A stretch of DNA of 64,000 nucleotides from a virus: positions 20,499 through 84,498 of IMG/VR virus record IMGVR_UViG_3300040801_001025; one strand, written 5' to 3'. Made by a program: the position numbers and the translations under genes. The notes below the pieces were generated by a model. That model had not been told where the DNA came from. It searched no databases and saw only the letters and a program-made list of their open reading frames with translations. Positions within the stretch are counted from its first letter, which is position 1; each line of letters opens with the position of its first letter. This document shows, piece after piece, positions 34,475-47,364 of the stretch.

Positions 34475-34483
34475 TATAAATAG
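34475..34483 (+). promoter_or_regulatory. T4-type late promoter, TATAAATAG
   Basis: Drives the HNH gene. ATAGCA (34480-34485) pairs with TGCTAT (34500-34505) at the start codon, with GAAGGAG in the loop. Confidence 0.75.
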
Positions 34484-39117: not shown

Positions 39118-39129
39118 CTCTAAGCTATC

Positions 39130-39174
39130 TTGAAGTTCGATAAAAGGGTGTGCTATAATGGCGCACCCTTTTTT
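39130..39174 (+). promoter_or_regulatory. Promoter within a terminator-like hairpin
   Basis: TTGAAG (39130-39135), 18 bases, TATAAT (39154-39159). The -10 lies in the loop of a 12-bp hairpin (39142-39153 with 39161-39172) followed by T's. It can end transcription from upstream and start the MazG-like gene. Confidence 0.6.
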
Positions 39175-39194
39175 CGTTATGGAGACAGAAAAAT

Positions 39195-41489: not shown

Positions 41490-41559
41490 TGTGTGTCCCC
41501 CTACATGGTTAGTGTTTTTGCAGTCTCATACTTGATTTGTTACTGTCTATCACCTCCCA

Positions 41560-41589
41560 TGTATAACGGACTAATTTTAAAATAGTCAA
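41560..41589 (-). promoter_or_regulatory. Candidate sigma-70 promoter for phoH
   Basis: On the minus strand, TTGACT (41589-41584), 18 bases, TATACA (41565-41560), about 65 bases before the phoH start. A perfect late box TATAAATAC also lies on this strand at 41724-41716. Confidence 0.45.
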
Positions 41590-41614
41590 GCTGGAGAACT
41601 AGGCTAATCTAACG

Positions 41615-41643
41615 TTGACAATTATCATAGTCGATAGTAGAAT
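41615..41643 (+). promoter_or_regulatory. Strong sigma-70 promoter
   Basis: TTGACA, exact 17 bases, TAGAAT. Predicted start near 41650, leaving a leader of ~93 bases before the gene at 41744. The leader also holds a late-like AATAAATAT at 41687-41695. Apart from these promoters I see no gene in 41490-41743. Confidence 0.7.
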
Positions 41644-41743
41644 CGCCGCTGTGTCTCGTCCTTGCCTGACGTGCAAATCGTACTGGAATAAATATCTCAC
41701 AGACGATGTACAATTGTATTTATAAGTTTTCTGGGAAGATTTT

Positions 41744-45276: not shown

Positions 45277-45565
45277 AGAAAAAGCTGATGCACTAGGTGT
45301 TCCACTGATCCCGGTTAAAGATAATTGGGGAAAGAAGCCTGTTCCCTACGATAATCCTATTATTGCAGTATGCGGTAAATGTGGTATCGAACTCCGGCAG
45401 ATTATGCACTTTGCATGTGGTCATAGTGATTGCCCTGCTGGTCTTGGCCCTGTACCATTGAAAGCATATGGTGATCTTGTCATGCAATATCAGACAAAAG
45501 ATACTGCTGAAATGTATGATGCCATGGATGTCTTTACTTCTGAAGGATGGGATGGTATTAAATGA
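45263..45565 (+). CDS. Hypothetical zinc-ribbon-like protein, 100 aa
   Basis: TTG start at 45263 is supported by GGAGG nine bases upstream. CGKCGIEL followed by MHFACGHSDC gives paired Cys/His sites for zinc. Overlaps both neighbours; the stop shares ATGA with the reductase gene. Function unknown. Confidence 0.7.
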   Translation: MSQFKEKADALGVPLIPVKDNWGKKPVPYDNPIIAVCGKCGIELRQIMHFACGHSDCPAGLGPVPLKAYGDLVMQYQTKDTAEMYDAMDVFTSEGWDGIK

Positions 45566-46089
45566 AACTTTCAATGATTCTAGCGTGTGATTCTGAGCTT
45601 GGAATTGGTAAGAATAACGCCTTGCCATGGAACTATCCCGAAGACTTGAAGTTCTTCAAGGAAACTACAGCGGGTGCAACTTGTGTCATGGGTCGGTTGA
45701 CTTATGAAAGCATGGTTAAACATATCAAACCTGCTGATGGTGCGCCGCTCCTTAAAGGACGCAAGTGTGTGGTGGTCAGTAGTAACATTTACTTTAGAAA
45801 TAAAGCTTCTGAACGACCGGGTACGATTGCAATTAGTGAGCTAGCAGAGCTTGACACACTAGAAGATATAGGAGATAATGTCTTCATTATCGGAGGTGCC
45901 AAGCTTTACGAAGAAGGTATCAAGATGGCAAAGTACGTTTACATCACAGATATTCCCGGTACTTACGGATGTGATGTAGCATTAAGTGATAGGTTTGTAA
46001 GTATTCTGACTATGAAATTTGAGAATGATTGGCAACAAGTTGTTCCGAGTGGTCTAATGTTTACTAGATTTAAAAGAAATACGAGATAG
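45562..46089 (+). CDS. frd: Dihydrofolate reductase
   Basis: 175 aa. Regenerates tetrahydrofolate for thymidylate synthesis. MILACDSELGIGKNNALPWNYPEDLKFFK (catalytic acid region), CVMGRLTYESM, VVVSSN and VFIIGGAKLYEEG are the ordered DHFR motifs. Works with the dCMP deaminase encoded at 37.5 kb. Last protein gene before the RNA island. Confidence 0.95.
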   Translation: MKLSMILACDSELGIGKNNALPWNYPEDLKFFKETTAGATCVMGRLTYESMVKHIKPADGAPLLKGRKCVVVSSNIYFRNKASERPGTIAISELAELDTLEDIGDNVFIIGGAKLYEEGIKMAKYVYITDIPGTYGCDVALSDRFVSILTMKFENDWQQVVPSGLMFTRFKRNTR

Positions 46090-46091
46090 TA

Positions 46092-46227
46092 TCAAGAGGG
46101 ATAATATTACGAGTGGTTACTGCGGAGCCGGTTTACGCTAGCGTTGAACCAGTAACCTGAGTGTGGGAAATTAGAGCAAAGAGTGACACACCTCAAGCGA
46201 ATGACTCTAATACTCGTACCCTTTTGA
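46092..46227 (+). ncRNA. Candidate structured RNA with pseudoknot, class not recognised
   Basis: Nested and contiguous helices read by eye: 46092-46100 with 46219-46227 (9 bp, one G-U); 46108-46114 with 46212-46218 (7 bp, stacked on the first); hairpin 46115-46122 with 46150-46157 (8 bp); hairpin 46158-46165 with 46187-46195 (8 bp, one bulge); and a pseudoknot 46170-46176 with 46205-46211 (7 bp), whose second strand abuts the outer stem. Helices meet without gaps, unlike chance pairing. It contains no convincing reading frame. The 3' end overlaps the tmRNA promoter, so it is probably a separate RNA; being a leader or part of the tmRNA precursor is possible. Confidence 0.55.
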
Positions 46228-46234
46228 TAAATAG
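46226..46234 (+). promoter_or_regulatory. Late-type promoter for the tmRNA acceptor piece, GATAAATAG
   Basis: ATAAATAGCAGTA here is the same 13 bases as at the HNH gene promoter (34476-34488). Predicted start is near 46239. Confidence 0.6.
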
Positions 46235-46301
46235 CAGTATATGGTTGTATGATCTTTTCTGGAGAAATTTCGACACGCGGGTTCGAATCCCGCCACCTCC
46301 A

Positions 46302-46437
46302 CTAAGCACTAGCGATAGCTAGATGCTACCTCCCAGTAACCATTGGGGGAGGGCTACCAGAATGCCAAAGAGTTACATGGGTGTTAGACGTGTCTCCTGT
46401 GTAAACGACATTCTGGATAGTCTGGACACGTCTCTAT
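46302..46437 (+). other. Intervening segment of the permuted tmRNA precursor
   Basis: Should be cut out in maturation. It folds densely: hairpin 46306-46326 (GCACTAGC/GCTAGATGC), hairpin 46329-46352 (CCTCCC/GGGAGG), and an H-type pseudoknot of 46357-46364 with 46409-46416 (8 bp) and 46386-46394 with 46425-46433 (9 bp). The pseudoknot ends four bases before the mature 5' end of the coding piece. Confidence 0.6.
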
Positions 46438-46519
46438 GGGGGTGACTTGGAATCGACCGGGATTAAGCAAGGACGAGTGACAACCCGATATGTAAATCGT
46501 TAAAACACTTAAACTAAAT

Positions 46520-46564
46520 GCAAATGATGCATTCTATGATGAGGAAATTGCGCTAGCAGCGTGA
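46520..46564 (+). CDS. tmRNA proteolysis-tag reading frame
   Basis: Codons from GCA at 46520 give ANDAFYDEEIALAA, then TGA at 46562. The AND start and ALAA end are the hallmarks of ssrA tags; ALAA-type ends are read by ClpX and ClpA. There is no ATG or ribosome site, as expected, because translation resumes on the tmRNA. The first alanine may come from the charged tRNA-like part, adding one residue. Confidence 0.88.
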   Translation, partial: ANDAFYDEEIALAA

Positions 46565-46602
46565 TCCCTCGGAGGGTGACGCCTTCTTACCAAATAGTCA
46601 GA

Positions 46603-46626
46603 CAAAGGCACCTTCGGGTGCCTTTG
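46603..46626 (+). terminator. Rho-independent terminator after the tmRNA
   Basis: CAAAGGCACC, TTCG tetraloop, GGTGCCTTTG, then TTATAATT. Confidence 0.9.
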
Positions 46627-46632
46627 TTATAA

Positions 46633-46686: not shown

Positions 46687-47364
46687 ATGCGAAACGATAG
46701 CGCAGTTGAAACACAAGAATTGCTGTTAGGTCAAAGTCTATTTGAAAAGCCTATCAAACACTATAAACAAATCATACCCGTAACAATTCATCATATCTAC
46801 ATCAATGGTGAAATTGAAGAAGAAGCAGATCGTTACATTGACATGCTAAATGAAATTAAGTTAGCAGAAGCACATGATCATGTCTTTATCTACTTAAATA
46901 CTCCCGGTGGAAGCCTTTCTACTACAATTCAAATCATGTCAGCCATTAAGCAATCTCAAGCCACGGTTACTACGGTAATTGAAGGCGATGTGGCATCTGC
47001 TGGAACATTTATCTTCCTATGTGGCGACGATTACATTGTACACGACAACTGTTCCTTCATGGTCCATAACTACAGTCATGGACCTTATGGTAAAGGGCAC
47101 GAGGTTGCACAAAGAGTTAAATTTACTGAGCAGCATTATCGCCAGTTGATCATCGATATTTATAAAGACTTTTTGACTGATGAAGAAATTGAAGATGTCC
47201 TCAAAGGCATGGATGTGTGGTTAAACTCTGAACAGGTTCGTGAACGTATTGAGACGAAAGTCGCTCGCGAAGAAGAAGCCATTCAAGAAGCCTTATCACA
47301 AGCTGCCGAAGCTGCTACACCAAAAAAGCCCAGAGGTCGAAAAAAGTCTAGCGACACAGAATAG
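46687..47364 (+). CDS. clpP: ClpP-like serine protease
   Basis: 225 aa from ATG 46687; the GTG at 46678 overlaps the ribosome site AAGGAG. Catalytic triad S104 (GDVASAGT), H127 (FMVHNYSHG) and D176 (MDVWLNSEQ) is intact, with the NTPGGS oxyanion-region motif. ClpP forms a barrel that needs an unfoldase such as host ClpX or ClpA, which also select ssrA-tagged proteins. The C-terminal ~30 residues are an Ala/Lys-rich tail (ATPKKPRGRKKSS) not typical of bacterial ClpP. It follows the phage tmRNA directly. Confidence 0.93.
   Translation: MRNDSAVETQELLLGQSLFEKPIKHYKQIIPVTIHHIYINGEIEEEADRYIDMLNEIKLAEAHDHVFIYLNTPGGSLSTTIQIMSAIKQSQATVTTVIEGDVASAGTFIFLCGDDYIVHDNCSFMVHNYSHGPYGKGHEVAQRVKFTEQHYRQLIIDIYKDFLTDEEIEDVLKGMDVWLNSEQVRERIETKVAREEEAIQEALSQAAEAATPKKPRGRKKSSDTE

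Follow-up and report, generated by a model that had tools for sequence, protein, structure and literature searches.

The pseudoknots of two-piece tmRNAs are typically confined to the coding piece (PMC3985003). Structured RNA adjoining a permuted phage tmRNA has been described in phage Melnitz, where a glutamine riboswitch (glnA motif) lies at the 3' domain of ssrA, together with a two-piece tmRNA (PMC9004378). In one-piece tmRNAs (RF00023), a block of pseudoknots, PK2-PK4, lies 5' of the P2 strand on the acceptor side. How the 5' end of the acceptor piece is formed in the precursors of two-piece tmRNAs is poorly described. Here we analyse a stretch of about 140 bases, called the element, between a dihydrofolate reductase (DHFR) gene and a permuted tmRNA. 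It is located in a window of 64,000 nucleotides, which belongs to an 84.5-kb IMG/VR contig of a T4-like virus. Like the Melnitz motif, the element is a predicted structured RNA adjoining a permuted phage tmRNA, but the former sits at the 3' domain of ssrA and the element has no match in Rfam. With PK2-PK4 it shares a predicted pseudoknot and the site 5' of the acceptor-side P2 strand, but it has a long closing stem of its own and lies outside the predicted late transcript, and neither RF00023 nor RF01850 matches its fold as a covariance model. The permuted families RF04321 and RF01850 describe its neighbour at 46243-46564. The first ~57 positions of RF01850 overlie the 3' end of the element (46187-46240) but are unpaired in the model, and the fold is not described by it.

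The locus and its permuted tmRNA

Among named phages, the Xanthomonas jumbo phage XacN1 is closest to the virus (terminase 54%, ClpP 44%), followed for the terminase by the Stenotrophomonas phages CM1 and RAS14. With just eight gaps of at least 70 nt in 64 kb, the genome is compact; the largest of these gaps holds the element and the tmRNA (Table 1). According to ARAGORN and Rfam, this tmRNA is circularly permuted and made of two pieces, the acceptor part being encoded ahead of the coding part, and the pairing strands are present. The element therefore stands ahead of the acceptor piece, whereas before an ordinary tmRNA gene it would stand ahead of the 5' end of the complete molecule. The earlier note had rightly placed the RNA upstream of a tmRNA but had missed both the permuted layout and the late promoter described below. 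It was also right that no gene fits, because DHFR stops before the element and the element contains no open reading frame of at least 30 amino acids. There is no tRNA in the window.

The 3' end of the outer stem P1 of the element is overlapped by a T4-type late promoter motif. The sequence at 46226, GATAAATAGCAGTA, is nearly identical to TATAAATAGCAGTA at 34475, and the late-promoter motif NATAAATA is concentrated in the short gaps before open reading frames, with 12 of the 23 plus-strand copies in about 4 kb of gaps. A late-promoter motif is placed likewise before the tmRNA in the relatives G010 and G013 (L208, L209) and before other permuted tmRNAs of phages. With the spacing known from T4, RNA would start at about 46240, at the acceptor piece. 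Thus, the predicted late tmRNA transcript would not contain the element, which would only be present on transcripts reading through from upstream. A candidate source of these is a sigma-70-like site within DHFR, called like the late promoter by motif match; such sites occur seven times on the plus strand of the window compared to 1.35 times in shuffled sequences. Directly upstream of the element no promoter of its own is evident, and no intrinsic terminator (a GC-rich stem followed by a T run) was found at the element.

Table 1. Features of the DHFR-tmRNA-ClpP locus in window coordinates
Feature	Position	Strand	Remarks
DHFR gene	45562..46089 (stop codon 46087-46089)	+	ORF; Pfam DHFR_1, E 1.6e-29; directly upstream of the element
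Possible sigma-70 promoter within DHFR	45851..45879	+	TTGACA-17-GATAAT, 11/12; candidate source of read-through RNA
P1 5' strand, first part	46090..46100	+	pairs with 46219-46229; 11 bp, one G-U
P1 5' strand, second part	46109..46114	+	pairs with 46212-46217; 6 bp
Hairpin P2	46115..46157	+	46115-46122 pairs with 46150-46157
Pseudoknot stem S1 (predicted)	46158..46165 (5' strand); 46187-46195 (3' strand)	+	8 bp, C46191 bulged
Pseudoknot stem S2 (predicted)	46170..46176 (5' strand); 46205-46211 (3' strand)	+	7 perfect bp; crosses S1
P1 3' strand	46212..46229	+	pairings read off the sequence
T4-type late promoter GATAAATA	46226..46233	+	motif match; overlaps P1 3' end; next bases GCAGTA as at TATAAATAGCAGTA, 34475
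tmRNA acceptor piece (P2 3' strand, T arm, acceptor 3' side)	46243..46302	+	Rfam tmRNA_permuted RF04321, 98.5 bits; ARAGORN permuted tmRNA
Intervening segment between tmRNA pieces	46303..46437	+	structured
tmRNA coding piece, tag ANDAFYDEEIALAA, then terminator-like hairpin	46438..46630	+	ARAGORN, Rfam
ClpP-like protease, downstream neighbour	46690..47364	+	Pfam CLP_protease, E 6.1e-17

Fold of the element and its stability

P1 spans 46090-46229, starts at the first base past the DHFR stop codon and comprises 17 bp in total, its two parts being interrupted by eight and one unpaired bases. It encloses the hairpin P2 and the stems S1 and S2, whose crossing is predicted to give a pseudoknot. No unpaired bases are left at the junctions 46114/46115, 46157/46158 and 46211/46212. 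All pairings claimed in the earlier note are present in the sequence at the bases claimed. Its 16-bp outer stem exists but is slightly longer than claimed, 46092-46227 corresponding to the inner 9 bp of the 11-bp part.

The nested minimum free energy of the element is -41.2 kcal/mol (z -3.1), and one of 200 dinucleotide shuffles was equally stable. For 46089-46230 it is -44.4 kcal/mol (z -3.8), and none of 150 dinucleotide shuffles was as stable, whether a pseudoknot term was included or not. The fold is thus more stable than shuffles; equal stability of shuffled sequences was the outcome that the earlier note had named as speaking against its proposal. About 4% of the 142-nt windows of this genome reach a z-score of -3.5 or lower (15 shuffles per window). 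If S1 is required to follow P2 directly and S2 to precede P1 directly, a geometry that was chosen post hoc, none of 1000 shuffles of the 54 nt at 46158-46211 matches the observed pairing score; with free geometry, H-type pseudoknots of similar stem energy are found in about 6% of the shuffles. S1 and S2 compete in nested folding. Pseudoknot-aware folding favours the pseudoknot, but by only about 1.7 kcal/mol under an assumed penalty of +7 and in a comparison whose script retained just 5 bp of S1. Given the shuffle results, the free-geometry pseudoknots and the share of windows with low z-scores, P1 and P2 are very probably real, and the formation of the pseudoknot is probable. In addition, TGGTTACTG of P2 (46114-46122) could alternatively pair with CAGTAACCA in the intervening segment of the tmRNA (46334-46343), and the 9-mer CCAGTAACC is present in both P2 and this segment, for which we estimate a chance of about 7%.

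Searches with blastn against phages and plasmids gave short chance matches only, and a loop-based pattern found nothing in viral contigs. A covariance model built from the single sequence, whose reach for diverged homologues is limited, recovered the element itself but nothing in 74 other phage records, in ClpP loci or in the loci of the leaders described below. Run without filters on L226, a 340-kb jumbo relative, it matched merely unrelated short hairpins. The search for homologues in related phages, which the earlier note had proposed, was therefore negative with all three methods, and no further copy was found elsewhere in the genome. Because there is no homologue, there is no covariation for the element's own pairs. 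As for the description as an unrecognised pseudoknotted RNA, the fold is probable and no match was found among 4227 Rfam families, the best chance score being that of a snoRNA (13.1 bits, E 0.33), while the pseudoknot is a prediction. An intrinsic terminator, a tRNA-like structure and the riboswitches of Rfam were likewise looked for and rejected. The THF riboswitch, considered because of the DHFR gene, was also rejected, since its known layout has the pseudoknot partner outside the hairpin-bearing stem and no Rfam match was found. A short similarity to L113 (GTGACAC..CAAGCGA) was dropped as chance, there being no permuted tmRNA in sight and the sequence resembling the 3' part of a one-piece tmRNA.

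Upstream regions of permuted tmRNAs in relatives and other phages

In seven relatives (L222, L208, L209, L228, L229, L308, and L311) a protein gene lies close to the tmRNA promoter and there is no comparable element; the ClpP of L222 is 63% identical. The gene just upstream of the tmRNA varies between relatives, for example Acb1 in L208 (Pfam), and the site is therefore a slot of gene turnover. In G010, the Acb1 anti-CBASS protein (L213:477-1094, Pfam E 1.2e-33) is encoded directly before the late promoter of the tmRNA, in the slot of the window's DHFR. Turnover of accessory genes in this slot could have left the element behind as an insertion scar, a passive intergenic stretch whose fold is not under selection, and it would fit that its z-score is not unique in the genome and that it has no homologue. 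We consider such an origin unlikely, since the genome is otherwise very compact and long near-perfect stems with flush junctions would probably not persist without selection.

The relation to DHFR can be judged from XacN1, in which the gene after DHFR begins 9 nt downstream and the element is absent. It is therefore no general tail of DHFR genes, which weakens the suggestion of the earlier note that it is a cis-element of the DHFR transcript. As an independent small ncRNA, for which the new phage ncRNA of the earlier note would stand, or as a 3'-end stabilising structure of this particular transcript, it would merely adjoin the tmRNA, and its knot might obstruct 3'-to-5' nucleases or be bound by a protein or another RNA. 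P1 beginning immediately after the stop codon, the late promoter separating the element from the tmRNA, and the gap between stem and acceptor piece would all suit this explanation, as would the promoter of a comparable stretch in L226. The missing promoter directly upstream, the missing U-tract terminator, the XacN1 gene and the lack of copies in the genome or in relatives speak against it, so that we regard it as possible and as second to our best explanation given below. The stretch in L226 (1996-2116) is a different structured non-coding sequence upstream of a permuted tmRNA and lies directly behind a sigma-70-like TTGACA-17-TATAGT. A similar outer stem, a hairpin and a flush third stem can be drawn in it, but its nested z-score is only -1.07. 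Between this stretch and the acceptor piece, there are a late-promoter motif and a short hairpin (ATCCAAA/TTTGGAT). XacN1 encodes a GOLLD RNA about 1 kb downstream of its permuted tmRNA (L206:2840-3253), and the tmRNA is found twice in that record, at 37 kb and 356 kb.

Scanning with one acceptor-sequence pattern gave 73 phage stretches with similar acceptor pieces. If a tRNA precedes the tmRNA, a stem closes the spacer between them, reaching from the CCA of the tRNA to exactly the start of the acceptor piece. Among 19 spacers between a tRNA and the tmRNA that exceed 25 nt, 17 have a flush stem of this kind with 12 bp or more, related phages being counted repeatedly, whereas in the same loci not one of 70 spacers between two tRNAs has a flush stem of even 8 bp. 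Over 20 distinct examples, 98.1% of the cells of the 13 outer pairs are paired, with double changes in ten of these pairs (64 cells); none of 500 shuffles reaches the observed covariation score, and slid controls stay far below it. The leaders are 31-121 nt in size and their interiors vary between a 5-nt loop and domains with several hairpins. Six of them form a subgroup with conserved loops and additional covariation, and H-type pseudoknots are predicted in the interiors of L351 and L373. Further loci with such leaders include L321, L324, L344, L371, and L378. Two flush stems have no tRNA upstream, one in the cultured Synechococcus phage BUCT-ZZ01 (L388) and one in a contig of a Burkholderiales MAG (L392), the latter behind a sigma-70-like promoter. 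In both, the stem reads ACCATA...TATGGT and so takes in the first bases of the acceptor piece. No Rfam family covers the flush stem, the literature, as far as covered, contained no description, and we know of none. Its occurrence before the tmRNA only, and not between tRNAs of the same array, suggests a dedicated leader, which is directly testable.

Possible roles of the element

The element resembles these leaders in being non-coding, in its long closing stem, in its place just before the acceptor piece of a permuted tmRNA and, as to L351 and L373, in its predicted pseudoknotted interior. However, their stems end 0 nt from the acceptor piece, while P1 ends at 46229, 12 nt before TGGTTG. The leaders usually start at the CCA of a tRNA, or with an ACCA that pairs with TGGT, while the element follows a DHFR stop codon. 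The element also has a late promoter between stem and acceptor piece, and there is no similarity in sequence or model. As two of the defining features, the flush end and the CCA start, were not found, we do not call the element a member of this group.

Our best explanation, which we hold tentatively and short of calling it probable, sees the element as a structured leader or boundary that is specific to this lineage and is carried by transcripts reading through into the permuted tmRNA. In the early or middle phase, transcription would read through from upstream, for example from the sigma-70-like site within DHFR. In this RNA, P1, P2, and the pseudoknot would fold into a compact block separating the mRNA from the acceptor piece, which would probably help to set the 5' end of the latter, to protect it or to release it. 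In the late phase, the promoter at 46226-46233 would start the RNA at the acceptor piece and bypass the element. We favour this leader because a leader closed by a stem, though a different one, is found at the corresponding place in other viruses, because the fold is stable with tight junctions in a compact genome, and because L226 has a different structured stretch there while the DHFR of XacN1 comes without the element. Against it count the 12 bases between stem and TGGTTG, the protein gene upstream instead of a tRNA, the missing similarity to any flush leader, and the lack of a homologue and hence of covariation. In addition, with the late promoter, the late tmRNA transcript can do without the element, which most close relatives lack. 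The earlier note offered three options, of which we prefer the added domain of the tmRNA precursor, but this would apply to read-through transcripts only, the late promoter lying in between.

The domain could also be kept on the mature acceptor piece and replace pseudoknots 2-4 of the one-piece tmRNA. The site just 5' of the acceptor P2 strand is the place of PK4 in one-piece tmRNAs, the flush leaders sit exactly there, and two of them, like the element, have a predicted pseudoknot. Nevertheless, we regard this as quite improbable, given that the late promoter would yield acceptor pieces without the element, that a 12-nt gap intervenes, that most relatives do without the element, and that two-piece tmRNAs typically carry pseudoknots in the coding piece only (PMC3985003). 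If the element is a leader on read-through transcripts, it would be an elaborate and independently built version, and it would show how one tmRNA could be used via two promoters in two phases. More generally, phages with two-piece tmRNAs may repeatedly have evolved structured and sometimes pseudoknotted leaders of the acceptor precursor, which would shape the 5' end or replace lost pseudoknots, the element being a divergent, promoter-separated example with its own fold; we consider this generalization conceivable but rather unlikely.

Two further gaps of the window show features of their own. The second longest gap (41490-41743, 254 nt, non-coding) precedes a PhoH gene on the reverse strand and has a TTGACA-17-TAGAAT site at 41615 and no Rfam match. 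The short gap at 39118-39194 contains a strong terminator-like hairpin (AAAGGGTGTGC...GCGCACCCTTTTTT) with a z-score of about -6.
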